Shown here one piece after another: positions 17,260 through 41,118 of a stretch of DNA of 64,000 nucleotides. A program made the translations under genes and the position numbers. The notes under the pieces were generated by a model. The model was not told the origin of the DNA and made no database searches. It saw only the letters and a program-made list of their open reading frames with translations. Within the stretch, counting starts at the first letter, position 1; every line of letters starts with the position of its first letter. This DNA comes from Allocoprobacillus halotolerans (GTDB lineage Bacteria > Bacillota_I > Bacilli_A > Erysipelotrichales > Coprobacillaceae), in NCBI RefSeq assembly GCF_024399475.1, contig NZ_CP101620.1, forward strand, positions 973,608 through 1,037,607, in the 5' to 3' direction.

Positions 17260-17308
17260 AAAGGATATTTTTATAGAGTTGAATTTTAATATGAGTCGTT
17301 GAATCCAA

Positions 17309-17786
17309 TAGGGTAGAGGAATAAATTCAATGATTTATTGCCCCTCCCTTTGAACCGTACGTACGGGTCTCGTATACGGCTCTACATTTATATCGCTATC
17401 ACAAACTCTTAAGATAGTAATTAAGGAGATGGACTAAACCTGGTCTGTCCCCTTTCTTTATGCCTAGAACCGTTGGTGATAATATGAAGTTGACTACTTG
17501 TAATCCACTTCTCCTATACTCAGGGTAAGACATACATCTTTTTTCTATCTTCACAAGTTCTTGATTTACTGTCTTGGTTTTACGTTTACCTTTTGGATTT
17601 CGGTTTGTGTAGCAACTTTATCCACCATTTAGCCTCATCAAGTTTCTGTTCGTAACCTCGAAGATTTCACTACACCACTTCCTTCACCCCTAACTTCACT
17701 GTTAACAGCTTGTGGTTCACTACACTTGGCGGTAAATACCCGTGGTTGGACTTTCACCAACTAGATGTATGCCATGCCTGGCACAC
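17309..17786 (-). mobile_element. ORF-less group II intron, class C-like
   Basis: Read on the minus strand, the element starts GTGTGCC (the GUGYG 5' consensus) at 17786. It contains typical domain I stretches (for example TGGTGAAAGTCCAACCACGG). Near its end it has a domain V hairpin: GAGCCGTATACGAGA paired with GTACGTACGGTTC. A domain VI stem and an end near CTACCCTAT (about 17309) follow. The length of about 478 bases leaves no room for the reverse transcriptase/maturase, and none is encoded. It lies three bases behind the T-run of the aldolase terminator, the target preference of group IIC introns. Exact 3' end is uncertain by a few bases. Confidence 0.8.
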
Positions 17787-25574: not shown

Positions 25575-26428
25575 TTACTTAGCACCTTTATTTATTTGAA
25601 ACTGATACATATCAGAAACTTTTATGAAATAAATTGGTAATGATTTTGGTAAAATTGTTGGCAAGTATTCCTCACCATACCATTTCATACCAGGTTCTTC
25701 TAAATTAAAATGTCCTACTGCTAAAATACATTTATCAATATTTAACATTGCTGTATCTTTAATATAAATGCCAAGCGTATAATCAATACATTCCATAGAT
25801 ATAATAGTATCAATATTTTCTTTATCTACAATTGTAATTTTATCATTATCGTTTCCAGTAATATGCATAGGAATATATATTCTTTTTGTATAACCATCAA
25901 TATTTCCAAAACATTTGAGTCCATTCAAACCAAGTTTTTCCATCAACTCATTAATAAACTCTTTTGTTGATATTTTAGGAACATCAATAATCAATGGAAA
26001 TCCAATATCTCTATCAATGTATTTTTCCCATCCAAACATCTTTAATAGGCCATAGAAAATGCCATCCACACGTTTTCCATGACAAAGAATCCCTGCATGG
26101 ATATAATCATGATTACGCCAAACAGTAATATAATTATCCTGTAACATTTTCTTTTTCATTTGATATGTTTTGTTGTCTATCAACCAATCTGTATGATCTC
26201 CATGATTCCAAAATAATGACTCGTGGGCTATAATTAAATTGACGTTTTTTTCAATAGCTTGTTTAATCACATCAACACTTGCATATATACATGTTATAAT
26301 ACCTGTACACTCATCTTCTACATCGCCAAAAAGAATTTGATCACGTGTTGTTTGCTCATTAATCTCTCTTCCATTCCACTCATGATAGTGATTTTTTTAA
26401 TACAATCAATAATTTCTCTATGCTTCAT
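25575..26428 (-). CDS. Nif3-like dinuclear metal centre protein, one frameshift
   Basis: The N-terminus (MKHREIIDCIKK from 26428) and the rest (open to 25575) are in different frames. One extra A in the A7 run (26392-26398) joins them through NHYHEWNGREINEQTTRDQI and continues into YASVDVIKQAIEKNVNLIIAHE. The IIAHESLFW segment and the C-terminal AVGHFNLEEPGMKW carry the His and Glu ligands typical of Nif3/DUF34 proteins, about 284 residues in all. The biochemical role of Nif3 proteins is unsettled (proposed GTP cyclohydrolase-like or metal insertion). It is the last gene of the PTS operon, four bases after nagA. Confidence 0.8.
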
Positions 26429-26432
26429 ACTT

Positions 26433-27581
26433 TTAACCTTTCTTTAATTGCGGAACACCTTTACAATATGTTTCCATAACAGAATAGTCATCTTCTAAAA
26501 CAACAATATCAGCATCATAACCAACCACTAAACTACCTTTTTGGTTATCAACATTAAGTAATCTAGCAGGATTTGAAGTACATGATTGAAGTGCGACATC
26601 AAAAGGAACCATTGCTTCTGTAACTAGTTTTTTTAATCCTTCATTCATTTTTAATGTACTACCTGCAAAATTCCCTTCTTTAACTAGATGAGCACTTCCA
26701 TCTGAATAAATTTCTACTTCAAGATTAGCAAATTGAAATTTTTTTCCTACCTCATATCCCTTACACATTAAAGAATCAGTAACCATAATGGCTTTTTCTT
26801 TACTTTTTGAACGGAAAAATACTTGAATAGCTTCAGGTGTAACATGATTACAATCACATATAATCTCACTGTATAATGAATCACATCTTAATGCCCCACC
26901 AACAACACCATTTTCACGATGATTAAATGGACTCATTCCATTAAAAGTATGTGTAACTGATTTTGCACCATTTGCGATTGCAAAAGTTACTTGTTCTAAT
27001 GTTGCCGAACTATGGCCAATTGAAACAACAATGCCATTAGATGCACAATATTTCGTTAATGAAAAATTTTTATCATGTTCTATTGCCATAGTCATGATTT
27101 TTATTAAACCATCAGCTGCATTTTGATATTCTTGAAATTCTTCAATAGTAGGCTGAACAACTGCCTGAATAGGTTGTGCTCCGTGATATTTTTTATCAAT
27201 ATAAGGACCTTCCAAATGAATTCCTAATATATCCGCACCTTGAGAATTCTCTTTTTTTACTTTCGCAATATTCTTTAACGCTTTTATTAATTCATCTTTG
27301 GATGCTGTAACAGTGGTAGGTAAAAATGATGTTACCCCTTCTTTGGCTAAATGTTGTTGCCATTCTTTCAAACCATTTTCTTGACCACTATTTGTATCAA
27401 AGCCATATGCTCCATGTGTATGAATATCAATAAATCCAGGAACTATTCTTTTGTTTCCATAGTCTTTATCTACATGACTATCATCATATTGTAAAATATT
27501 AACAATTTTATCTTTTTCAATTTCAATAATAGCGGGCACAAATCGATCCGCTATATATACTTTCTTACTTTTGATAAGCAT
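26433..27581 (-). CDS. nagA: N-acetylglucosamine-6-phosphate deacetylase
   Basis: 382 residues, amidohydrolase fold. Motifs: GFIDIHTHG (H54, H56), IHLEGPY (metal ligand E124), IGHSSAT (H190), VTHTFNGMSPF (H211) and MVTDSL (catalytic D269). It converts GlcNAc-6-P to GlcN-6-P plus acetate. A nagB (deaminase) gene is not in the window. It sits in the PTS operon behind the MupG-like gene, so GlcNAc-6-P is probably one product of this pathway. Confidence 0.96.
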   Translation of the reverse strand: MLIKSKKVYIADRFVPAIIEIEKDKIVNILQYDDSHVDKDYGNKRIVPGFIDIHTHGAYGFDTNSGQENGLKEWQQHLAKEGVTSFLPTTVTASKDELIKALKNIAKVKKENSQGADILGIHLEGPYIDKKYHGAQPIQAVVQPTIEEFQEYQNAADGLIKIMTMAIEHDKNFSLTKYCASNGIVVSIGHSSATLEQVTFAIANGAKSVTHTFNGMSPFNHRENGVVGGALRCDSLYSEIICDCNHVTPEAIQVFFRSKSKEKAIMVTDSLMCKGYEVGKKFQFANLEVEIYSDGSAHLVKEGNFAGSTLKMNEGLKKLVTEAMVPFDVALQSCTSNPARLLNVDNQKGSLVVGYDADIVVLEDDYSVMETYCKGVPQLKKG

Positions 27582-27599
27582 ACCATATTCACCTACCTT

Positions 27600-28787
27600 T
27601 TAGTATTCATAATATTCAAGAAATTCAACCAAATCTTCATTATTAATCAACTCTAACATTTGATCTTCATAAGTAGCAAGTTTAGCAATCAAATTTCTTT
27701 TACCATCATTTTTTATTGGAATCTTTACAATTTGAATTTCTCCAGAATAATGTTTATTCACATCATTAACAATCACAACACTTCCTACTGGAAAGTATTC
27801 TCCAACATATTTTCGAGGAGGAATATCTCTATTTTTATTAATTAATCTACCACTTCTTGAACGCCATATCCATTCTGATGAATCACCATTATCTAGCTGT
27901 GGTACTAAATCTAATAGATTCTCTCTTTCAATTTCTGTAATGTCATCTTCAAGAATAACTTTCAATCTTTTGCAAGGTCCAAATTTTGGTAGTATTGGTC
28001 CATATGCCTTAATTTGGGCATAGACAGGTGAATCTTCAAATTCTTTAGGTGGTTTAACCACTTCTGCAATAGCTTTTAATTCTGCTTCTGAAGCATATGC
28101 ATTACCAATTAAAATATCGTCTACATCTCCTGTTGCTAAAATAATTCTTGTTTGTAAATCAATTGGTAAATCTCGTAATCTTTCAACAGTAGGAAGTCCA
28201 TCTTCTGCATTCCAAATTCCATGAGTATTTGGGGCATTAGAGCTTACAATTGCAGCAATTTTATATCCATATTTCTTTAATTGCTGATTTTTTGTTAAAA
28301 AATCATTCCATTTTAAACCCGTATAACGTTGTGGATAGGCATTATGTCCTAATAAAATTTTATCTTTTGCTACACCTTTTCCATAAAAATACTCGATTTC
28401 CTGCGCAACTTTAGATGAAGTTGCATTCATTTCAATTTTAATTCCATAAGGATTTTGAATCATTATATAATCATTTTCAGCACCATATGAACCATCTAAA
28501 CGAATAATGTCACATTTTATTTCATTAAACAAAGATATATCATCATAAGATTGATTCATACGTTTTAAAAAATTTGTATTCACGTCCAAAGAAACTTTCA
28601 TTCCAAATTCATGAGCAATCTTATTAAACTCTTTAAAATAATTGATGATTTCTTCATTCGTACCCTCAACAGAAAGCATACTAGAAGATACTCTTGTAAA
28701 TCCGTATCGAGATGCTAACTGCAAGTATTCTTTTATTTTTTCCATCGGACTTAAATCCGGATAAGCTAAAACTCCTAATTCTGTCAT
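27600..28787 (-). CDS. DUF871 / MupG-type 6-phospho-N-acetylmuramidase-like protein
   Basis: 395 residues. An N-terminal TIM-barrel-like domain (1-about 240; LGVLAYPDLSPMEKI, ISLDVN-type and DIIRLDG strands, LGHNAYPQRYTGL) is followed by a cyclophilin-like C-terminal domain (about 275-395). This is DUF871. Its member MupG of Staphylococcus aureus cleaves MurNAc-6-P-beta-1,4-GlcNAc inside the cell. With the PTS, nagA and a deacetylase in the same operon, recycling of a wall disaccharide is likely. No murQ etherase is seen here, which leaves the fate of MurNAc-6-P open. Confidence 0.88.
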   Translation of the reverse strand: MTELGVLAYPDLSPMEKIKEYLQLASRYGFTRVSSSMLSVEGTNEEIINYFKEFNKIAHEFGMKVSLDVNTNFLKRMNQSYDDISLFNEIKCDIIRLDGSYGAENDYIMIQNPYGIKIEMNATSSKVAQEIEYFYGKGVAKDKILLGHNAYPQRYTGLKWNDFLTKNQQLKKYGYKIAAIVSSNAPNTHGIWNAEDGLPTVERLRDLPIDLQTRIILATGDVDDILIGNAYASEAELKAIAEVVKPPKEFEDSPVYAQIKAYGPILPKFGPCKRLKVILEDDITEIERENLLDLVPQLDNGDSSEWIWRSRSGRLINKNRDIPPRKYVGEYFPVGSVVIVNDVNKHYSGEIQIVKIPIKNDGKRNLIAKLATYEDQMLELINNEDLVEFLEYYEY

Positions 28788-28819
28788 TCTGACTTCTCCT
28801 TATTCTATATATTGTAAAA

Positions 28820-30168
28820 TTATGATATTGTTTTAATAATTGATTTGATTTGTATGACTCCATATATTGCTAATATAATATCTGCAATATAGCCTGCAAA
28901 TCTAATCCCATATTCATGGAAAATAATATTAAGCAAAAAAATTGCTGGTATCTCCAAGATGACTTTTCTCAAAATTGCAAACCAAAGTGATTTTTTCCCA
29001 TTCCAACACTTTGAAAAACACCTATTGCCATAAAATCTACAAGCATAAAAGACATCGATGCACTGTATCCACGTAAAAATAAAGTTCCATAAAAAATAAT
29101 TTGTTCTTGATCTATAAATAATCTCGTTAATTGAGCTGAGAAAAACCAGCATAATACTGCAATGATACACATACTTGGAATCATTAATTTAGCAGTAAAA
29201 TAAATTGTTTCTTTAAAACGCTGTTTATTTTTACTCGTATATGAATAACTAATAAGTGGCATAATTCCCTGAGTTCCACCTGTTGCTATTTGCAACGGTA
29301 TCATATATATTTTCTGTACAATTCCCACAGCTGCTATGGCTGATGCATCATATCCAGAAACAAAATTATTCATGACTGTCACAGTCGTAACATTTAAAAG
29401 GTTTTGAATAGATGCTGGTATTCCAACATTACAAATTTCATAAACAATTTTTTTATTTAAAGATAGAAGATATTTTGGATGTAATCGTATTGATGTTTTA
29501 TCTTTTTTCATGATTAATAAAATTATAAAATACAAACACGAAATACAATTAGAAATCAAAGTTGCTAAAGCTGCTCCAGCCGCTCCCATTTTAAAACCCC
29601 ATGCCATTATGAAAATTGGATCCAAAAAATATTAATCATACACCCAAGCATTGTTCCAACACTTGCATGAGTCACTTGTCCTTCTGCTCTTACCAAATAG
29701 GCTAAAACAACATTTAAAATAGATGGAACAGCCCCAAATATAACATTCCATAAAACATACTGACTGGTTGCATAAAAAGTATCTAAACTAGCTCCAAGTA
29801 ATAATAAAAGTGGTTTTAAAAAACAAAACATAAAACAGATAAAACACTAGCTAAAATAATAGAACCATATATTCCAAAAGAAGCACTCGTTTTAACAATT
29901 TGATAATCTTTTTTCCTAAACCTCTACTCATCAAACTTGAAGCACCGATACCAAACAAATTATTCACAATCTTAAAAGATATTAAAAGAGGAGATGTTAA
30001 TGATACAGCAGCACTTTGGATTTTATTATTAAGTAAACCTACAAAATATGTATCAGCCAAACTATATAACACCATCACCAAAGAACCTAAAATTGTTGGA
30101 ATCATAACTTTAATTGCTGCCTGAGATATATCCATTTCTTCAAAAAGTTCAGAATTTGTATTTCCCAT
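28820..30168 (-). CDS. MATE-family multidrug/sodium antiporter, three homopolymer frameshifts
   Basis: Four overlapping open segments on one strand together give a MATE transporter of about 450 residues with 12 hydrophobic helices. The N-terminus is MGNTNSELFEEM, with LYSLADTYFVGLL and the repeat-2 hallmark GIPASIQNLLNVTTVTVMN. The frame is lost at GGAAAAAAG (about 29910), ATTTTTTGG (about 29629) and GGAAAAAAT (about 28996). In each case one more A or T restores the expected sequence. The gene is therefore probably intact. It lies between PTS IIA and the MupG-like gene; its substrate and link to the sugar operon are unknown. Confidence 0.85.
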
Positions 30169-30180
30169 ATGACTAAACAC

Positions 30181-30538
30181 CTCGTTCTCTTTTTAATTCA
30201 TCAGCAAATAAAAAGATAAACTTTTTATAAATTGAAAATTTTTAACCTTACAACTAAACAATTTACCTAAAGTATCATATGTTTTCTTTCTCATTCTACA
30301 AAATTGAAACATCAAATAAATATAATCATTTCATAAGTTCTCTATTCTAAGATATTTTAAGGGGAAATAGGTTGGGAAAAGCACTCATAATATTTTCCCA
30401 ACACATGCTTTTGCTAATCTCAAAATATTAAGGTCATTTTATAAATATCTCTAAATATGTATAATGATTATTGTTACATAAACACATTATGTTCTTTCAA
30501 AATATATCTTTATATAACTTATGTTATTGTATAAGGTC
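30181..30538. other. intergenic region with a long inverted repeat
   Basis: About 350 AT-rich bases between the MATE gene and PTS IIA, both on the minus strand. It contains the inverted repeat TTGGGAAAA ... TTTTCCCAA (about 30372-30402) separated by about 13 bases. There is no T-run, so an operator or processing hairpin is more likely than a terminator. A new promoter for the downstream half of the operon could lie here. No coding sequence seen. Confidence 0.4.
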
Positions 30539-31020
30539 TTATCCAAGTTCAATTTCTTCTATTAAAGTTTGACCAGCTTGAACCATTTCTCCATAACAAT
30601 TTAATGCTATAGATTTATTAAGAGGTGATGTGAATACAACCATAGTTGTCATATCAATTCCTAAATTTTTCATATACTCACTATCAAATGATACCAATGG
30701 ATCTCCTGCTTTAACTTTCATTCCTTGTTTTATTTTTACTGTAAAGCCTTTACCATTTAATTCTACTGTGTCTAGTCCAATATGCACTAAAACTTCAATA
30801 CCTTTTTTTGTTTTTAATCCCACAGCATGACTTGTTTGCGCAATAAGAATAATTTCCCCATCAACAGGTGATACGACTTCTCCTACTGTTGGTACAACTG
30901 CAAATCCATCACCCATTGCTTTTGAAGCAAATACTTCATCTTTGACTTCTTCAATAGGTATGCATTTTCCAGTAACTGGTGAAACAACTTTTTCACAACT
31001 TTTTTAATAATATTAATCAT
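30539..31020 (-). CDS. PTS glucose-type EIIA component, one frameshift
   Basis: About 160 residues once one A is added to the A6 run at 31000-31005. ATG at 31020 (behind GGAGGAGTGTAG) then reads MINIIKKSCEKVVSPVTGK and continues into the open frame MGDGFAVVPTVGEV. The phospho-His is in LVHIGLDTVE, with the usual second His in QTSHAVGL. As a stand-alone IIA (crr/PtsG-type) it would donate phosphate to the IIBC protein encoded 2 kb upstream in the same operon, which lacks its own IIA. Confidence 0.9.
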
Positions 31021-31038
31021 CTACACTCCTCCTGTCAT

Positions 31039-31815
31039 TTATATAATATCTTTATATCGAATTAACTGAACATTATTTTTATGAATCCATTCTAATACTT
31101 CTGGATTACATGCACCTTCTAAATCATTTAAACGATAAAGATGATAACTAGATAAATCCACCAATTCTCTATCGACATATCCCATATGGCCCACAAGTAA
31201 ATTATATTCATTTTTTAATAAATCATCTGCATGCGTTAGAATATAGCTAGAGAGTGATGAATTCATTTGATTTTCTAAATTCGCCGGTTTTAAATACCAT
31301 GGTATCCTATATTCTGTCACTTGACACCCAAATGTTTTCTTCCAAACATCTGATGCAAAAGGAATATCATATTTTTTACTTAACTGTCTTTGCACTTCTA
31401 ATATGCTTTCGTTAGTAAAGGCATGAGAGTGAATATAATCTGGTTTCTTTCCAACTAATTCTATAAATTTTAATATTTGTGTTTCAAATTCAGCATAAAC
31501 TTCTATTTTGAAAAGTGTGCTTTCATGTTTTTGTAACTCTCTCATTTCCCAACTTGTAAAAAATTCTCCATTTTCTTTGACTAAAGATGGAATTTTTTCT
31601 TTAGGTAATAATGGTTTCCCTGTTGTTATATTTAAATCAATCCCAAAATCAATTTGATCTAAATAAGGTTTAATGTATTCAACACATTCTTTAGTCCATT
31701 CCATATTAGCAAATAATCCTGTGTTACGAATCATACCATTTTTTATTCCATGTATAATTCCTAAACTTACTGCTTTTGATATACCATAATCATCTGCTTG
31801 TACTAATAATTTCAT
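31039..31815 (-). CDS. ChbG/YdjC-family carbohydrate deacetylase
   Basis: 258 residues, starting MKLLVQADDYGISKAVSLGI with the metal-binding Asp pair (DD). HSHAFTN holds the metal His residues, and NLLVGHMGYVD the late His. The family removes an N-acetyl group from phosphorylated chitobiose or related beta-linked GlcNAc sugars before glycosidase attack. It lies 11 bp downstream of the GH1 gene and 18 bp upstream of IIA, so a deacetylate-then-hydrolyse order fits. Confidence 0.9.
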   Translation of the reverse strand: MKLLVQADDYGISKAVSLGIIHGIKNGMIRNTGLFANMEWTKECVEYIKPYLDQIDFGIDLNITTGKPLLPKEKIPSLVKENGEFFTSWEMRELQKHESTLFKIEVYAEFETQILKFIELVGKKPDYIHSHAFTNESILEVQRQLSKKYDIPFASDVWKKTFGCQVTEYRIPWYLKPANLENQMNSSLSSYILTHADDLLKNEYNLLVGHMGYVDRELVDLSSYHLYRLNDLEGACNPEVLEWIHKNNVQLIRYKDII

Positions 31816-31826
31816 ATTTTTCCTTT

Positions 31827-33260
<1,434 letters not shown>

Positions 33261-33265
33261 TCACT

Positions 33266-34702
33266 TTATTTATACATTGATTTCTTTTTTTCAAATTTTA
33301 ATTTCTTTTTCCCAATATTTAATTTATCTTCACCTTGGAAACCAAAGATAATTCCAATAGCAAGTGCAACAACCAAACCAACAAGACAACCAATTGTTCC
33401 TTTTACAATATCTTCTCCAAAACGTAATGGATTTAAGAATGGGAAACCTACCCCAGCAAAAATATAAACTTTAGCCTGTAATAAATAACATACTAATGAT
33501 CCACAAGCATTTGCAATCATAGAATAAATCAATGCTTTACGATCAGCCAAAATAATACCATATAATCCTGGTTCAGATATATTGGCTAATGTCATTGATG
33601 TAAAACAACTCCATCCAACACTTTTCTTTTCTGCTCCTTTTGCACGTAATGCATAAGCCAAGAATAATCCCATATATGTAAATGTACCAACAATCATTGC
33701 TGGATAGACAATCATATCATATCCAATTTCCATTTGAGCAGGAAGTAATGCTGTTAAAACTGGAACATGCATACCAAATAAAACAACAAATGGCCATAAT
33801 GGAGCAACAATAACAGCTGCTAATAATCCAAAATTTGCTGTTAACCATAATAATCCATCAGCAACCCAACCCATGATAATATAACAAGCTGGTCCTAAAA
33901 TACATAAACCAATTGGAAGCATAATAACAATTGTTAATACTGGAACACCTATGATTCTAAGCATATCAGGAATATATTTCTTTAAGAATTTTTCCACATA
34001 TGACATGATCCAAACAATGATAATAATTGGAATAACTGCTTGAACATAGCTAGTTAAATGCATTGGGATACCAAAAACCGTAAATGCTTTTTGAGCTTCG
34101 ACAATACCTAACATATTAGGACTTAACATAATCCCAGAAAATAACAATGCCATCATTGGACTAACTTTAAATTTGACTGCTGAACTATATGCTGCATAAA
34201 ATGGTAAGAAATAATAACCAGCATTTCCAACCATTTCAAACAAAACAATTAAGTCACTATCTTCAGCTAACCATCCTAATTGTTCAGGTCCAAAAAGGAT
34301 TACTAACATTTTAAAAATACCGGCTACTATCATGATAGGTAATGTTGGAATAATACATCCACTTAAAGTACTCATGATATTATTAGCAACTGATTTAATT
34401 GTTAGTTTTTCCTTTTTCCTTTCAGGTTCATCTTCTATGGATTCTGTTTTATTAAAACCACCCATTTTACATAATTCATCATAAACTTTACTTACCTGTT
34501 GCCCAATAACAACCTGAACTTGACCACCAGCATGAACAACTTTAATAACACCTTCTACTTTTTCTAATTTTTCTTTTTCTTCTAAACTTTCATCTTTTAA
34601 TACGAGTCGAAGTCTTGTCATACAGTGAGTAGCATTTGCGATATTCTCCATACCTCCAATATACTCTACAATTTCCCCTAATGATTTTTGAATATCTTTC
34701 AT
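33266..34702 (-). CDS. PTS EIIBC (beta-glucoside / N-acetylated sugar type)
   Basis: 478 residues. IIB (1-about 85) has phosphocysteine C27 in THCMTRLRL. A charged linker leads to IIC with about ten membrane helices and no IIA domain; the separate IIA gene lies in the same operon. An AAGGAGG-type site precedes the ATG. Transcription reaches it through an attenuator at 34760-34832. The substrate is inferred from partners: a beta-linked sugar containing GlcNAc and/or MurNAc. Confidence 0.93.
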   Translation of the reverse strand: MKDIQKSLGEIVEYIGGMENIANATHCMTRLRLVLKDESLEEKEKLEKVEGVIKVVHAGGQVQVVIGQQVSKVYDELCKMGGFNKTESIEDEPERKKEKLTIKSVANNIMSTLSGCIIPTLPIMIVAGIFKMLVILFGPEQLGWLAEDSDLIVLFEMVGNAGYYFLPFYAAYSSAVKFKVSPMMALLFSGIMLSPNMLGIVEAQKAFTVFGIPMHLTSYVQAVIPIIIIVWIMSYVEKFLKKYIPDMLRIIGVPVLTIVIMLPIGLCILGPACYIIMGWVADGLLWLTANFGLLAAVIVAPLWPFVVLFGMHVPVLTALLPAQMEIGYDMIVYPAMIVGTFTYMGLFLAYALRAKGAEKKSVGWSCFTSMTLANISEPGLYGIILADRKALIYSMIANACGSLVCYLLQAKVYIFAGVGFPFLNPLRFGEDIVKGTIGCLVGLVVALAIGIIFGFQGEDKLNIGKKKLKFEKKKSMYK

Positions 34703-34759: not shown

Positions 34760-34832
34760 AAATAAAAACCTCCAAAACAGTCTTTAATTTCTGTCTTTTG
34801 GAGGTCATGCCCTGTATTGCAGGTTACAATCC
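34760..34832 (-). promoter_or_regulatory. RAT antiterminator site overlapping a terminator, within the end of the antiterminator gene
   Basis: Minus strand: GGATTGTAACCTGCAATACA followed by GGGCATGACCTCCAAA (34832-34797) matches the LicT/SacT RAT pattern (GGATTGTTACT-loop-AGGCAAAACC). It overlaps ACCTCCAAAAGACAG ... CTGTTTTGGAGGTTTTT, an intrinsic terminator ending near 34760. RAT and terminator are mutually exclusive. The first half of the RAT encodes the last residues of the antiterminator protein itself. Confidence 0.8.
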
Positions 34833-35659
34833 TTTCTTACACATATCCTATTAACGTGTAACATTAAATATAATTTTTCATCTTCAGATAATTGTACTTT
34901 CCATTTTTCTTCAATATGGTGGCATATTTTAGAAACACATATTTCAATTGAAGGGAACTTATCTACTAAATCTTTATACAAAATATAATTTGCACTATTT
35001 ATTGTTTTATTATTTCTAATACGTTGAAATAAATATAATAAATGAGTAGCATAACGTGAATAATCAAAAGAATCTTTATCAATAATAATGCGTTGTGTTT
35101 GCTCAATAATCTCAGTAACTTCATTAAGCATATCTTCATATTCAAGTCCTGTTGCTTTATTGGCTGTATCTTTAACTTTTAATCTTGAATTGATTAAATT
35201 AAGAGCTATTCCTGTTATCTCATCATTAGGCAAATCAATTTCAAACTCTCTCTTTATTTTCTTTAATGCATATTTTCCAATCTTATATTCTAATGGATAC
35301 ATTTGTTGAACTTCATATAATAATGGCATCTTTACAACAATATTTTGTTTTGCTCTTTCTATCGCAAATGCAATATGATCAGCCATCACTAATGTCGCAT
35401 TACTACTTAAATCATAAGGAAGTTCATTTTTAATTATATCCATGAGACTAGCTGTAAATAAGACTACATCAGCAGGTAAATCCTTTAAGATATTTTGTTC
35501 TGAAACTTCAAAATCATAAAAGGTACGCTCTATTTCACTTAAAGATACTTCTCTTGGTAATGATTGAAATCCTAAGCCTTTTCCCATCGCTATTAGTTCT
35601 CTACCTTTTCCATCAACACATACCACAACATTATTATTTAACTTTTTTATAGCTTTCAT
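34805..35659 (-). CDS. licT: BglG/LicT-family transcriptional antiterminator
   Basis: 284 residues. The RNA-binding CAT domain (1-55) starts MKAIKKLNNNVVVCVD, followed by two PTS regulation domains, PRD1 (about 65-170, with HIAFAIERAK) and PRD2 (about 171-280, with RYATHLLYLFQRI and LMLHVNRI), holding the His residues phosphorylated by the PTS. When active it binds RAT hairpins and stops termination ahead of the PTS IIBC gene. GGGGAG is its ribosome site. Its own leader with RATs lies at 37381-37539, beyond an IS, so expression in this strain is uncertain. Confidence 0.93.
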   Translation of the reverse strand: MKAIKKLNNNVVVCVDGKGRELIAMGKGLGFQSLPREVSLSEIERTFYDFEVSEQNILKDLPADVVLFTASLMDIIKNELPYDLSSNATLVMADHIAFAIERAKQNIVVKMPLLYEVQQMYPLEYKIGKYALKKIKREFEIDLPNDEITGIALNLINSRLKVKDTANKATGLEYEDMLNEVTEIIEQTQRIIIDKDSFDYSRYATHLLYLFQRIRNNKTINSANYILYKDLVDKFPSIEICVSKICHHIEEKWKVQLSEDEKLYLMLHVNRICVRKDCNLQYRA

Positions 35660-35682
35660 ATCATCTCCCCTTCAACTTCAAA

Positions 35683-37375
35683 GGTAGTGTCAAAAATAGT
35701 TAGTTTATTTTTTGAAATAAATTAACCTAAAACCTCATTCTACCTTGGTTTTTTTATATTTTGATTATCTTCCCCTCTTTAATCTTGAAGATAATCTATA
35801 AACTTGACCATTTTTCTCTATACAAAAAAGGTAATAGTTCCTATAATTGTAAGTGACCAAACCACAATAAAAGGAGGGCTATTACCATGGTCAAGATTAT
35901 ATCATTAATTATTAAATTTTTAAATATCATTCGTAAATTTTTATTTAAATTAGAATGCTTTCTTTTGAAATTCCTTCCTAATGATTCCAATCCTTCTTCA
36001 ACCTCTGAGGTTTATAGAAGATTTAAGGTTCATCCTTTGCCTGTCATTGAGCCTGAACATCTTCCCGTATCTTTCAATCAGGCTAAGGCTGATTATGAAG
36101 TTAGGCACAACAAACCTTTAAAGCCTGTCTTTAGACACGCTGATAAAATCTATCCTCCAAAGGGAACCGTTTGCCCTCATTGCGGTGCCACTCATGAATA
36201 TCTTTCCTACAACAACGGTGATAAAAGAACACAGATCAGATGCAAGGTCTGTGAAAAGACTTTCTCTACCCAAAAGACTTATTCTCAGCAGGTTGTAAGA
36301 AAATGTCCTCATTGTGGCTGCAAGCTTTCTCATATAAAATCTCGAAATGATTTTGATATTTACAAGTGTACGAATCCAAAGTGCTCTCACTATAAAAACG
36401 AACTCAAGAAGCTTTCCAAGGCAGACAAGGCAAAATACAGGCAAAATCCTTCTGCTTTCTCGCTTCATTATATCACTCGTGTCTTCAACGCTTCCTTGGA
36501 TAGGCTTGAAAAGATTCAGCTTAAAATCGTTCCTTCAAAAGTCGATTTGTCAAGAATCCGCAATTCAAGACATGTCCTTGGTCTTGTTTTGACCTATTAC
36601 GTGAATTATGGCCTTTCACTCAGAAAAACAGCATTGATTCTATGGGAAGTTCATGACATAAAGATTTCTCATCAGACAATAGCCAATTATGCTCAGGCTG
36701 CCAGCCATCTTCTTTTTCCATGGATGGATAATTTCAAGCATGACCTTAACGATTACCAATGTGGCGATGAAACTTATGTCAAGGTTCTAGGCAAGAAAGC
36801 CTATGTTTTCTTCATGTGCGATGTCAAGAAGAAGATCATCACTTCCTATAGAATATACATGAAGCGTGATACATTCAGTGCCATTGATGCCTTCTATTCC
36901 GTATTAAGAAAATTCAGTGAGATACCTGAAAATCTTGAGTTTGTGGTTGATGGCAATCCCATATACAAGGCTGCACAGCAGTATTTTCAGCTCAAACGTA
37001 TCTTTTTCAAGGTAACGCAGGTGATTGGGCTTACGAATGATGATCCTGTTTCCATGGAACATCGTCCTGCCAAACAAATCATCGAAAGGCTCAATAGAAC
37101 ATTCAAATATTCATACGCTGTCAAAAATGGCTTCAATTCACTTGAAGGTGCCAATGATTTCATGTGCCTGTTTACGACATATTTCAACTTTCTAAGAAAT
37201 CATACAAGTCTAGGATACAGACCTCCAGTTAAACTGGATTGTCTTAAAAAGACGCATAATATGCCAAGTAAATGGAACATACTGTTGGATGAAGCATTGA
37301 ATTACTTCATAGAATCAACCATGGAATTCTAGTTATGAAAAAATTTTATTTTTTCATAACTTATTTGACACTACC
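35683..37375 (+). mobile_element. IS element with zinc-ribbon DDE transposase, copy 1
   Basis: 1693 bp bounded by the inverted repeat GGTAGTGTCAAA / TTTGACACTACC and flanked by a perfect 8-bp target duplication ACTTCAAA (35675-35682 and 37376-37383). Removing the element plus one duplicate restores an uninterrupted leader-terminator to ribosome-site sequence before the antiterminator gene. IRs beginning GG and 8-bp duplications resemble IS6-type elements. Confidence 0.93.
35887..37332 (+). CDS. DDE transposase with N-terminal zinc ribbons (IS6-like)
   Basis: 481 residues. Two zinc-ribbon motifs (CPHCGATHEY ... CKVCEKTF and CPHCGCKL ... CTNPKCSHY) are followed by an HTH region and an RNase H-like catalytic core. 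Asp is in YQCGDETYVKVLG, Asp in VVDGNPIY, Glu in IIERLNRTFK. The DETYVKV motif is like IS6/IS26 transposases, but the protein is twice as long, so family placement is tentative. The frame is intact. Confidence 0.85.
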   Translation: MVKIISLIIKFLNIIRKFLFKLECFLLKFLPNDSNPSSTSEVYRRFKVHPLPVIEPEHLPVSFNQAKADYEVRHNKPLKPVFRHADKIYPPKGTVCPHCGATHEYLSYNNGDKRTQIRCKVCEKTFSTQKTYSQQVVRKCPHCGCKLSHIKSRNDFDIYKCTNPKCSHYKNELKKLSKADKAKYRQNPSAFSLHYITRVFNASLDRLEKIQLKIVPSKVDLSRIRNSRHVLGLVLTYYVNYGLSLRKTALILWEVHDIKISHQTIANYAQAASHLLFPWMDNFKHDLNDYQCGDETYVKVLGKKAYVFFMCDVKKKIITSYRIYMKRDTFSAIDAFYSVLRKFSEIPENLEFVVDGNPIYKAAQQYFQLKRIFFKVTQVIGLTNDDPVSMEHRPAKQIIERLNRTFKYSYAVKNGFNSLEGANDFMCLFTTYFNFLRNHTSLGYRPPVKLDCLKKTHNMPSKWNILLDEALNYFIESTMEF

Positions 37376-37380
37376 ACTTC

Positions 37381-37497
37381 AAAAAATCCTCAAGGCAACT
37401 ATTTTAGGTATTAGTCATGCCTCGAGGAGTAACAATCTAAAAATTATATTTAATTTATATTATGCATCTCAGTAATGCCTACTTAAAGTAACAATCT
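37381..37497 (-). promoter_or_regulatory. leader of the antiterminator operon with two RAT-like sites and a terminator
   Basis: Minus strand, in order: AGATTGTTACTTTAAGTAGG then CATTACTGAGATGC (RAT-like site 1, 37497-37464), AGATTGTTACTCCTCGAGGC then ATGACTAATACCTAAA (site 2, 37438-37403), and an overlapping terminator CCTCGAGGCA ... TTGCCTTGAGGATTTTTT ending at 37381. Sites share ATTGTTACT and fit LicT-type RATs. The terminator would stop transcripts unless antiterminator protein is active. The IS inserted right after the T-run. Confidence 0.82.
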
Positions 37498-37510
37498 TCT
37501 ATGCACTTTT

Positions 37511-37539
37511 ATTATAATTCTAAAAAATAGACGTGTCAA
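37511..37539 (-). promoter_or_regulatory. consensus promoter of the antiterminator/PTS operon
   Basis: TTGACA (37534-37539) and TATAAT (37511-37516) with a 17-base spacer on the minus strand, a perfect sigma-A promoter leading into the RAT leader. Confidence 0.85.
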
Positions 37540-37807
37540 CCAAAAAATTTTTATATTTTATATTATTCTCTGGATACAATCATTATCCTCTTTAAACTTT
37601 GGAAAACATTCTTTTTATAGCTGAATACAAAAATAGAAATATTTCTTCCCATCTTGTCTTGATATATCAAAAAAAGAAAAAATGTGAGAAAAATACTAAA
37701 AAATAGATGTAAAAATGTGTATAATGAAGTTAAAAATATAGGTAAAATTGTGAAAAGCATATACAAATATTGAAATGGTAAAAAATTTTATGATACAATA
37801 ATTCATA
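37540..37807. other. short divergent control region before the second IS
   Basis: AT-rich, with no credible gene. On the plus strand TTGAAA (37770-37775) and TACAAT (37794-37799), spaced 18, look like the original promoter of the DUF4143 ATPase gene, now cut off from it by the IS at 37808. Confidence 0.45.
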
Positions 37808-39757
37808 GGTAGAGTAAAAAATCTATGAAAGTTTTACTCTTTGCAACTTTATAAAGTGTACGATGACTCTGGCAGGATGCATTTATTTGAAAATCTTTCT
37901 TTGTCTTTTCCCAAAATTTACGGACTGCCATCTTTCCAATAAAAAAAGCCCATTTTTGGGCGCAATGAGGGTATCGTTTCTCACGTCATTTTTTTAAAAA
38001 TGGTGAACTTTCTATGCTGCGTGATATTGTGAGCTGTACTCGATAAGTTGCAGCCATCTGTCAGGCATAAGCATATCCTTTTTGAACAGACCGTCATCAA
38101 CAGGCGTCTTATAGTTCAGTGCTGAATGCCTTCTTAAGAAATTGAAGAAGCATACAAACAGGACCATATAACTATTTGCACATTCAAGCCTGTCATAGCC
38201 ATTTGTTCCCTGATAGTTTTGCTTGTATGTCCTGTTGAGGCGCTCCTCAATCTGCTTGAAAGGTCTGTATTTCTGTGATTCCTCATCAAGATTCTTTACA
38301 CCGATGACCTGATGCAGGTCAAACTTGATTCCATTGATTTCAAAGAAAACCTGTGCTGCATTATAGATTGGATTCCCATCTGTTATAAGAGTCATGTCAT
38401 CTGGGATTTCACTGTAATGACTTAGACACTCATAAATAGATGTACAGGCACATTTTGTATCTCTTACGGGATAAATTGTGTAAGAAGTGATGATCTTTGT
38501 CTTGGGATCAGACCAGAAGAACACGTAATGATTCTTGCCTCTTATCTTAATATAGGTTTCATCGCCGGACAATATGGAGCCAAGCCTGTATGGATACCTG
38601 TCAACAAGAGGCTTGACTAGACGTGATACAGTTGTCGCATAGTTGATGACTGTCTGGTGTGATATTTTAAAGCCATGGACTTCCCTGATGATCAGTGCAG
38701 TCTTTCTTGAAGAAAGACCATAGTTGACGTAATAGGTCAATGCCAATCCAAGGATTCTGTGATCAAAATGAATTCTTGAAAGATTGACAGGAGTTGTGAT
38801 GTTTTCTTCAGCCTTTTTAAGACTGTCAAGATTGAACTTGAAGTCACGATAGTGATAGCGAAGCCTGTACTGATTGCTTGAAGTCAGAAGGTGTTCTCCC
38901 TTTCCTTCATCGACAAGCTTTTTGTTTTTGATGTAATAGGGGCATTTCATGCTTGGGCATACAAAAACAAGATATCCCTGGCGGTCGTGCTTCATATCAA
39001 GCTTTTTGCCACAATGAGGACAGAAGATGCCCGTTTCACCGGAAAGAGAGATCTTCAGGGAGAATGTCTGGCAGCATACCTTGCACATGAACTGACCGCG
39101 ACCATTGTTGTCATAGATATATTCATGAGGAGCACCACAAAAAGGGCAGACACCCTTAAAGTCAAAATTATTGTTTCTTCTGTTGACAGGCTTGATAGGA
39201 CGACCATCCTTTAATGCATTTCTAAGAATATCTTCAAAACTCAGCTGAACAGGTGCTTCCTTTTTGAAGACAGGAGGCTCGTCAATTTTAAAGTCGGCAT
39301 AAGGAATGGTATGATCATTCTTATTGGATTTCTTTAATTTCTTAAACTCTTTTTTAAGAGTGGGATTGATGTGTTTATCAAAGAAATCAATCATCCAGTC
39401 GAGATGGATTGTCACCTGCTCAAGGTGATAAATAAAATCAGAGGAATTAAGATGATACTCAACAGAATGAGGGATAGACTTTATCAACTGAAAGAAATCA
39501 ATATATTTGGAAAACTTAAAGTTAGATTTAGAAAAAGAATTTAAATTATTTAAGATATGTGTTATAGTATTCATGTGAAATATCCTTTCGTTAGATTTTG
39601 TGTAAAGAATACTATAACATGGATATTTCACTTTTTTAATACAAATTTTAGAGAAATAGTAAAAAAATAAGAATACAAATTATTATTAAAATAGAACAAA
39701 TAAAACAAATCAAGAGTAGTGCATTTGTGTTGTCATATAGCAACTTTTGACACTACC
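37808..39757 (-). mobile_element. IS element with zinc-ribbon DDE transposase, copy 2 (diverged, opposite orientation)
   Basis: 1950 bp with ends GGTAGAGTAAAA and TTTTGACACTACC and a perfect 8-bp target duplication AATTCATA (37800-37807 and 39758-39765). Ends and transposase are related to the element at 35683-37375 but clearly diverged, and it is inserted in the other orientation. Insertion separates the DUF4143 ATPase gene and its ribosome site from the upstream promoter-like sequence. Confidence 0.92.
38012..39574 (-). CDS. DDE transposase with N-terminal zinc ribbons (second family member)
   Basis: About 520 residues from the ATG at 39574 (AAAGGA site upstream; the frame itself opens at 39631). 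It is a homologue of the transposase at 35887-37332: zinc ribbons CPFCGAPHEY ... CKVCCQTF and CPHCGKKL ... CPSMKCPYY, catalytic Asp in LSGDETYIKIRG, Asp in LITDGNPIY, Glu in IEERLNRTYK. The N-terminal part before the ribbons is about 40 residues longer. Intact frame. Confidence 0.85.
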   Translation of the reverse strand: MNTITHILNNLNSFSKSNFKFSKYIDFFQLIKSIPHSVEYHLNSSDFIYHLEQVTIHLDWMIDFFDKHINPTLKKEFKKLKKSNKNDHTIPYADFKIDEPPVFKKEAPVQLSFEDILRNALKDGRPIKPVNRRNNNFDFKGVCPFCGAPHEYIYDNNGRGQFMCKVCCQTFSLKISLSGETGIFCPHCGKKLDMKHDRQGYLVFVCPSMKCPYYIKNKKLVDEGKGEHLLTSSNQYRLRYHYRDFKFNLDSLKKAEENITTPVNLSRIHFDHRILGLALTYYVNYGLSSRKTALIIREVHGFKISHQTVINYATTVSRLVKPLVDRYPYRLGSILSGDETYIKIRGKNHYVFFWSDPKTKIITSYTIYPVRDTKCACTSIYECLSHYSEIPDDMTLITDGNPIYNAAQVFFEINGIKFDLHQVIGVKNLDEESQKYRPFKQIEERLNRTYKQNYQGTNGYDRLECANSYMVLFVCFFNFLRRHSALNYKTPVDDGLFKKDMLMPDRWLQLIEYSSQYHAA

Positions 39758-39780
39758 AATTCATACAGGAGGCGAGTATA

Positions 39781-41118
39781 ATGGAAAGACTAAGAAGAAA
39801 AGTTGATGATTTTCTAGAAGAATGGAAACAAAAGGATAATAGAGATCCTCTAATTATAAAAGGTGCTCGTCAAATTGGCAAAACTGAGGCCATTGAACAT
39901 TTTGCAAGAAAACATTATAAATCAGTCATAGAGATTAATTTTGTTCTTCAAAAGCAGTATAAGACCATCTTTGATGATGGATTTGATGTTGATACTATCA
40001 TAAAAAATATTTCCTTGATTAATCCTGATTTTCAATTTATCGAAGGAGAAACGTTATTTTTCTTTGATGAAATACAAGACTGTATCAATTGTGCAACAAG
40101 TTTAAAATCATTCATGCTTGATAAAAGATATGATGTTATCTGTTCAGGTTCACTGATGGGAATCAATTATAGAGAAATTGAATCAAACAGTGTTGGATAT
40201 AAACAGGATTATGATATGTATTCTCTTGATTTTGAGGAGTTTTTATGGGCCAAAGGGTACAAAAATGAACAAATTGAAAATTTTTTACTAAAAATGTTAA
40301 AAACTGAGCCTTTATCACAATTGGAATATGATATTCTTTTAGAAAATTTTAGAGAATATATGGTTTTAGGAGGTATGCCTAGAATAGTCTTTACTTTTGT
40401 CAAACAGAAAAATTACAGCGTAACACTCCAAATGCAAAAACAACTGCTGTTGGATTATGAAGAAGATATAACAAAGTATGCTGGAGGATTGGATAAAGGA
40501 AGAATCTTGGATGTATATAGAAAGATTCCTGCATTTTTAGGAAATGACAACAAGAGATTCAAAATTTCTAAAGTACGAAGAAACGCTAGAAATAGAGAAT
40601 ATGTAGGGGTAGTAGACTGGCTATCAAATGCTGGTATTGTCAATCTTTGTTATTGTATGGAAACACCATCCTTACCATTAGGTGGCAACTATAATCCTGA
40701 TGCCTACAAGATTTATTTTGGAGATACAGGATTGTTGATTGGTTCATTAGACGATGAAGTTCAGGAGGACCTTCGCTACAATAAGAACTTTAATACTTAT
40801 AAAGGCGCAATCTATGAAAATGTCGTTGCAGATATGCTTGTCAAACAGGGATATAAATTGTACTTTTATAGAAATGAAAGAAATACGCTTGAAATAGATT
40901 TTATGATAAGAGATGCGACTTCATTAATTCCAGTTGAAGTGAAAGCCAATGATCAAGCGACAGCTTCCTTAAACAGATTAATAAAAAGCAATAAATATTC
41001 TGATATTCACTTTGGAATAAAACTTGCAAATAAGAATATAGGATTTAATGAACAATTCTATACATTTCCATATTTTCTAGCTTTCTTATTAAAAAGATTT
41101 CTAAAAGAGAGAACATAA
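39781..41118 (+). CDS. AAA ATPase with C-terminal DUF4143 domain
   Basis: 445 residues. Walker A is GARQIGKT at 28-35 and Walker B is LFFFDEIQDC (D96, E97), followed by an AAA_14 domain. The C-terminal DUF4143 domain has a PD-(D/E)XK-like pattern (LEIDFMI ... PVEVKAND). Such proteins are frequent in gut bacteria and archaea, often many copies per genome; the function is unknown. AGGAGG precedes the ATG. An IS ends 23 bp upstream, so transcription must come from the IS or a chance promoter. Confidence 0.88.
   Translation: MERLRRKVDDFLEEWKQKDNRDPLIIKGARQIGKTEAIEHFARKHYKSVIEINFVLQKQYKTIFDDGFDVDTIIKNISLINPDFQFIEGETLFFFDEIQDCINCATSLKSFMLDKRYDVICSGSLMGINYREIESNSVGYKQDYDMYSLDFEEFLWAKGYKNEQIENFLLKMLKTEPLSQLEYDILLENFREYMVLGGMPRIVFTFVKQKNYSVTLQMQKQLLLDYEEDITKYAGGLDKGRILDVYRKIPAFLGNDNKRFKISKVRRNARNREYVGVVDWLSNAGIVNLCYCMETPSLPLGGNYNPDAYKIYFGDTGLLIGSLDDEVQEDLRYNKNFNTYKGAIYENVVADMLVKQGYKLYFYRNERNTLEIDFMIRDATSLIPVEVKANDQATASLNRLIKSNKYSDIHFGIKLANKNIGFNEQFYTFPYFLAFLLKRFLKERT

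Follow-up and report, generated by a model that had tools for sequence, protein, structure and literature searches.

The stretch of DNA considered here (the window; 64,000 nucleotides of Allocoprobacillus halotolerans, positions 973,608 to 1,037,607 of contig NZ_CP101620.1) contains an operon headed by a gene for an antiterminator resembling LicT. An insertion sequence (IS) stands between this gene and its leader, which carries two ribonucleic antiterminator (RAT) sites. The parts of the locus, from the leader promoter to licT, are as follows.

37539-37511, minus strand: leader promoter TTGACA-17-TATAAT, a 12/12 match and the best of 26 promoter-like sites in the scanned stretch
37497-37471, minus strand: RAT1, within an extended 5'-end hairpin (37506-37462) and without a terminator of its own
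37438-37413, minus strand: RAT2, overlapping the leader terminator
37428-37381, minus strand: leader terminator, an 11-pair stem followed by six T
37376-37383: 8-bp target duplication ACTTCAAA, copy on the leader-terminator side
35683-37375, plus strand: intact IS element of 1,693 bp, with its left (transposase-upstream) end at 35683 and its right end at 37375
35887-37332, plus strand: transposase of 481 aa with zinc ribbons and an IS240/IS6-type DDE domain (Pfam PF13610, 34.7 bits; PF12760, 27.1 bits)
35924-35896, minus strand: promoter-like site within the IS, directed toward licT (10/12; its second hexamer is preceded by TG), upstream of the hairpin and T-run on the next line
35823-35886, minus strand: hairpin and T6 facing licT (fold -18.5 kcal/mol), between the transposase start and the left end
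35675-35682: 8-bp target duplication ACTTCAAA, copy on the licT side
34805-35659, minus strand: licT-like antiterminator, 284 aa, with a CAT domain and two PRDs; its ATG lies at offset 23 from the IS end (site L262)

An earlier note on this DNA, made from the sequence alone, had described the promoter, both RAT sites, the terminator and licT, and had recognised that an opposite-strand IS detaches the leader from licT; we recovered all of these elements at coordinates exact to the base, and the separation with them. The predicted transcript start lies at about 37506-37504. The 5' arm of the leader terminator is the 3' half of RAT2, the last three T of its T-run lie inside the target duplication, and the leader as a whole folds more stably than shuffled sequences (z -2.9). 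Across the 2.93-Mb genome the RAT pattern was matched six times, against none for a reversed control; three of the matches fall in the licT operon, and two of the other three are one repeated sequence.

The antiterminator scores 48 bits for the CAT domain (PF03123) and matches PF00874 (PRD) in two stretches, but its score against the LicT equivalog model (NCBIfam NF046042) is 213.8, below the cut-off of 300, and we therefore name it LicT-like. Asparagine takes the place of the second histidine of PRD1 (IALN instead of the IALH of others) here, in the ortholog described below and in two further relatives; judging by this residue, sugar sensing by the IALN-type protein may differ from that of LicT.

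The IS is bounded by perfect 12-bp inverted repeats (GGTAGTGTCAAA). It is present as a single full-length match in the 2.93-Mb genome, and its relatives in other genomes share end bases 1 and 1693. The transposase opens with about 90 residues, followed by PF12760 at residues 91-125, a second CxxC group at 140-166 and the DDE domain from residue 294.

A separate related-locus search with LicT returned no related loci. Among the relatives searched, the closest LicT (74% identity) is found at locus L021 (genome G009), in another genus of the same family, and L021 is an empty site for the window IS. The promoter hexamers there are likewise perfect, RAT1, RAT2 and the terminator follow in the same arrangement, and ATGGAAAAGGGGAGATGATATGAAAGC comes immediately after the T-run. 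The RAT cores of the two genomes are nearly identical (18/19 for RAT1 and 23/24 for RAT2), whereas the spacer between them has drifted. The earlier note had held that removal of the IS and one 8-bp copy would bring the T-run up against the licT ribosome site, and had proposed comparison with IS-free relatives. Joining the flanks in silico gives TTTTTTGAAGTTGAAGGGGAGATGATATG, in which the terminator stands directly before the ribosome site, and L021 shows the same arrangement in nature, with an uninterrupted leader and licT. Synteny with the relative continues through the operon (EIIBC, 87% identity; GH1, 85%; YdjC-like, 62%; EIIA, 63%) and on to the MupG-type, amidohydrolase and NIF3-like genes. 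On this comparison the tandem RATs are an old feature, and leader and licT were separated secondarily, since an IS-free, syntenic relative has the same leader joined to licT.

Insertion ahead of translation starts

Most ISs have loose insertion preferences. The first sign that the present element differs came from IS copies in related genomes, in each of which the left end pointed at a ribosome site and an ATG; the earlier note was silent on the precise distance between the IS and the start codon. Left ends were then gathered by the IS-end pattern alone (TTTTGACACTACC), blind to the flank. A scan of the family gave 53 sites in 43 genomes (reversed control, 2) and was extended to 315 genomes of the order. 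Of the 102 distinct sites that we read, 83 have inner sequence in common with another copy; three of them (L314, L336 and L337), which lack the gene-start pattern, were taken as right ends and excluded, leaving 80 left ends. We set aside 19 singleton pattern matches, most of them apparently due to chance and a few in line with the rule described here. The 80 left ends lie at unrelated genes in two families of one order; the genomes share ancestry while the sites are at different genes.

Reading outward from the last IS base, an ATG is found at offset 22-24 in 75/80 left ends (offset 22, 17; offset 23, 51; offset 24, 7), or in 75/83 with the presumed right ends included. The layout is the same throughout and has one orientation: the 8-bp duplication, a Shine-Dalgarno (SD) sequence and the ATG. 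Of the 75 ATG sites, 70 also carry a listed SD word, and at 68 the frame stays open for 40 codons or more or as far as the fragment end. At random positions an ATG occurs at that offset in 6.5% of cases, and an ATG together with an SD word in 0.5%.

A second IS of the same clade lies upstream of the leader promoter and has likewise come to rest before a start codon.

37808-39757, minus strand: second IS, with its left end 23 bp before an ATG at 39781 (site L271)
37800-37807 and 39758-39765: its 8-bp target duplication AATTCATA

This element has about eight copies in the genome, and exact 8-bp duplications flank 5/5 intact copies, each at a different gene. Nine further relatives were found via the transposase rather than the end pattern, and the rule of an ATG at 22-24 is kept in eight of them. 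A tblastn search with the transposase yielded plasmid relatives of 40-47% identity, in which the ATG stands at offset 23 in Geobacillus (L355), Levilactobacillus (L357) and Pediococcus (L356) and at offset 24 in a second Geobacillus locus (L358). A genome search with the Geobacillus transposase added four further loci whose IS end could be recognised, of which three are outside the order (L363, offset 24; L366, 22; L367, 22; L365, 23). Exact 8-bp duplications are present in L358, L361, L365 and L366. Left out of this count were L359 and L362 (where we could recognise no IS end ahead of the transposase), L360 (masked) and L368 (no recognisable end). The targeting pattern, in its ends, duplication, orientation, spacing and generality, is thus well supported, and the insertion point in the window is not accidental but follows a clade-wide rule.

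We consider it likely that this IS6-like clade inserts one way round at translation starts by way of an SD-ATG DNA motif, and that it has here split licT from its leader and probably left the operon off. In this model, the transposase would read a two-part motif consisting of a purine-rich GGAGG and an ATG some 12-13 bp further on, with the extra N-terminal zinc-ribbon region probably serving as the reader. We infer both that the DNA itself is read and which domain of the transposase reads it. At the real sites the position of the ATG has a standard deviation of 0.55 and that of the SD 1.33, as compared with 2.5 for the SD-ATG spacing of ordinary genes. That both parts are held more tightly than in ordinary genes fits a two-part DNA motif; a choice anchored on the ribosome would free the SD, and one anchored on GGAGG would free the ATG.

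A simpler reading is that only a GGAGG-like word is recognised, and that gene starts predominate because intragenic insertions have been lost by selection. No part of the target is indeed more informative than the SD core (G at offsets 11, 13 and 14 in 78-90%), and an SD-like word often has a start codon behind it: in local DNA, SD-like sites whose score equals or exceeds that of three quarters of the real sites have an ATG at the offset in 14% of cases, rising to 31% if intergenic and to 52% for the stronger intergenic matches. Real sites of the same SD score have an ATG in 56/60 cases, however, and the overall rate of 94% (75/80) departs from the 52% null at P of about 3e-16. Moreover, the ATG is tighter than the SD, the spacing between them is narrower than in ordinary genes, and insertions at SD-like words inside non-essential genes should often survive. 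Recognition of GGAGG alone thus seems improbable.

Even less credit is due to the idea that translation starts are sensed as such, the target being marked by translation or transcription (for example by an initiating ribosome, a bound component or an anti-SD RNA encoded by the element) rather than read as DNA: the ATG is the tightest feature, as a ribosome-defined site would have it, but the SD is also tighter than natural, which is simpler under a DNA reading, and we know of no DDE element that chooses targets marked by the ribosome or by translation. Such sensing, if real, would add a novel mode of target choice to those of DDE elements.

Several points nevertheless weigh against reading of the two-part DNA motif. 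Five of the 80 left ends lack an ATG at offset 22-24, although each of the five retains an SD-like word, rich in purines, where one is expected, and Geobacillus L361 has its ATG at offset 30, off by seven. The null was built from SD-like sites in about 85 kb of local DNA with simple gene calls. All insertions known here are survivors, so that selection against intragenic insertions contributes to the pattern, and the AlphaFold model of the transposase (predicted local distance difference test score, 40) gives no support for the putative reading domain.

As to classification, the elements have traits of the IS6/IS26 family, namely an 8-bp target duplication and inverted repeats starting GGnnnTG (GGTAGTG at both ends), the type of end given for the family in PMC6807381. 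Their scores against the NCBIfam IS6 model (81.3 bits for the window IS and 67.8 for the second) lie below the cut-off of 125, however, and we therefore call them IS6-like rather than members of IS6/IS26. In having both a zinc finger and additional N-terminal sequence before the DDE domain, they resemble the long zinc-finger transposases at the edge of this family, as far as sequence can indicate. These form clade VIII of Harmer and Hall (ISHahy6, ISHco2 and ISTet2; 1,713-1,761 bp, transposase 453-454 aa; PMC6807381), which is apparently the same as clade i of Varani et al. (PMC7986276). The likeness extends to length (here 1,693 bp and 481 aa), the zinc finger and N-terminal extension, the 8-bp duplication and the GGnnnTG ends, and is drawn from the descriptions of those three elements. 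Harmer and Hall (PMC6807381), who found no experimental data on clade VIII, propose separating the group from the family. The portions of PMC6807381 and PMC7986276 available to us report no gene-start preference for clade VIII or clade i, and a literature search for insertion directed by an SD or start codon found no report, though it covered few subscription journals and an earlier description is possible.

Fixed sites and orientations are likewise known for IS110/IS1111, CRISPR-associated transposons, Tn7 and REP-targeting (repetitive extragenic palindrome) ISs, which use different enzymes or guides; to our knowledge, none of these targets an SD and start codon in many unrelated genes. For IS110/IS1111 the guide is an RNA, termed seekRNA or bridge RNA (PMC11187229).

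Insertion at one distance before start codons, sparing both the ribosome site and the coding sequence and with the transposase pointing away, would amount to a safe-site strategy in a DDE element. The rule would predict genes disconnected from their promoters, which is testable in gut and food bacteria, and the clade might yield a tool for directing insertions to gene starts.

Expression of licT after the insertion

The insertion has separated the promoter, RAT1, RAT2 and the terminator from licT in this strain, and a further control point, absent from the earlier note, lies behind the gene.

34832-34759, minus strand: RAT3 with its terminator, spanning the stop codon of licT and preceding EIIBC

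The position of RAT3 and its terminator is common to most licT-type relatives of the family, and, since the terminator lies between licT and EIIBC, EIIBC and the genes behind it would also need LicT. Without LicT, leader transcripts would be expected to halt at the leader terminator, any that pass it would halt at the IS hairpin, a putative terminator facing licT, and the RAT3 terminator before EIIBC would remain closed. Because read-through into licT itself requires LicT, and the IS places a terminator in front of the gene, licT is probably silenced and the operon off or very low, as we infer from the arrangement of these elements.

The earlier note had expected the operon to be poorly transcribed or else driven from an IS promoter. 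Poor transcription is likely, the more so given the IS hairpin and the dependence of the downstream genes on LicT through RAT3, but the second suggestion fared less well. Sugar-independent expression of licT from the IS, bypassing the leader terminator, has in its favor the 10/12 promoter-like site with TG at 35924-35896 and the intact ribosome site and frame of licT. This site is immediately followed by the hairpin and T-run, however, no site of at least 9/12 occurs from there to licT, and 17 bp beyond the TTGACA of the IS end stands GGGGAG instead of a -10 hexamer, which makes IS-driven expression unlikely.

The IS hairpin is also complementary to the ribosome site of the transposase. It may thus be an antisense RNA together with the terminator of that RNA, and at the same time a structure by which the ribosome site is hidden in transcripts entering from outside. 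Matches to the Rfam families Ref64, sau-5949, Srn266 and Spy392987, small RNAs of Enterococcus, Staphylococcus and Streptococcus, fall below the gathering score and are a hint only. Equivalent hairpins of unrelated sequence, with T6-T8, occur in the second IS (hairpin and T-run at 39571-39640) and in the Geobacillus, Pediococcus and Levilactobacillus relatives; in five diverged elements such a hairpin and T-run are directed at the target gene.

The layout of the operon resembles that of the Clostridium acetobutylicum bgl operon (bglGTH), which has one promoter, a RAT-terminator before bglG and another before bglT (PMC12628678). The two-point arrangement is the same, although each leader there has one RAT and the first leader here has two. 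The Escherichia coli bgl operon is likewise altered by an IS, which activates it from upstream of the promoter (PMC8836124, PMC11043490), whereas the IS described here lies between terminator and gene and is probably silencing.

Tandem RAT sites and operon content

The earlier note had called two RATs in one leader unusual, and a survey of 118 distinct BglG-family genes of the class agrees. At a threshold passed 0.019 times per shuffled leader, at least one RAT-like site was found upstream of 41/118 genes and two sites upstream of 5/118. In three of these five the additional site is distant and only just reaches the threshold, which fits chance (about two expected); a convincing close pair is therefore limited to 2/118, the licT operon, read with its flanks joined, and its ortholog. 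Among 84,980 species, an exact pattern for two RATs in close succession was matched 53 times, never beside a BglG-type gene, and all of these matches were taken as chance; this pattern is strict and of limited sensitivity, so that it shows rarity only in part. At another locus, L111, two complete RAT-terminator modules stand in tandem, 113 nt apart, 3' of a BglG-type gene.

RAT2 and RAT3 each overlap an intrinsic terminator ahead of target genes, which is not true of RAT1. RATs without a link to a terminator have been mentioned for E. coli and Bacillus subtilis (PMC12502629). It is possible, if on balance somewhat doubtful, that RAT1 is no more than what remains of a RAT-terminator module once duplicated, and serves no function today. 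The terminator after RAT1 is absent in both this genome and L021, and complete doubled modules are known at L111; against this, 18/19 positions of its core have been kept between two genera while the spacer of 32-34 nt drifted, and extended 5' hairpins are present in both genomes, with differing outer stems. In the minimum-energy fold of L021 the 3' flank of RAT1 pairs with a terminator arm; this pairing is absent in the present leader and was not used. For studies of antitermination, a lesser point of interest is that two genera have kept a tandem RAT leader in which one RAT has no terminator.

The remaining features of the operon and its surroundings are as follows.

33266-34702, minus strand: phosphotransferase system EIIBC, beta-glucoside/sucrose type (87% identical and syntenic in locus L140)
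31827-33251, minus strand: GH1 6-phospho-beta-glucosidase (85% identical in L140)
25575-31815, minus strand: rest of the operon, comprising YdjC/ChbG-like, EIIA, a MatE remnant, MupG, NagA-like amidohydrolase and NIF3-like
28820-30180, minus strand: the MatE-type transporter gene, broken into several frames, between EIIA and mupG
26271-26433, minus strand: apparent frameshift near the start of the NIF3-like gene, at a run of seven A
17308-17705, minus strand: group II intron RNA domains

The combination of GH1, ChbG-like, MupG and NagA-like proteins suggests that the substrate may be an amino-sugar disaccharide, perhaps derived from the cell wall, rather than a plain beta-glucoside. L140 has no gene at the position of the broken transporter. 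The NIF3-like gene is intact there, and its frameshift in the window reflects either decay or a sequencing error.
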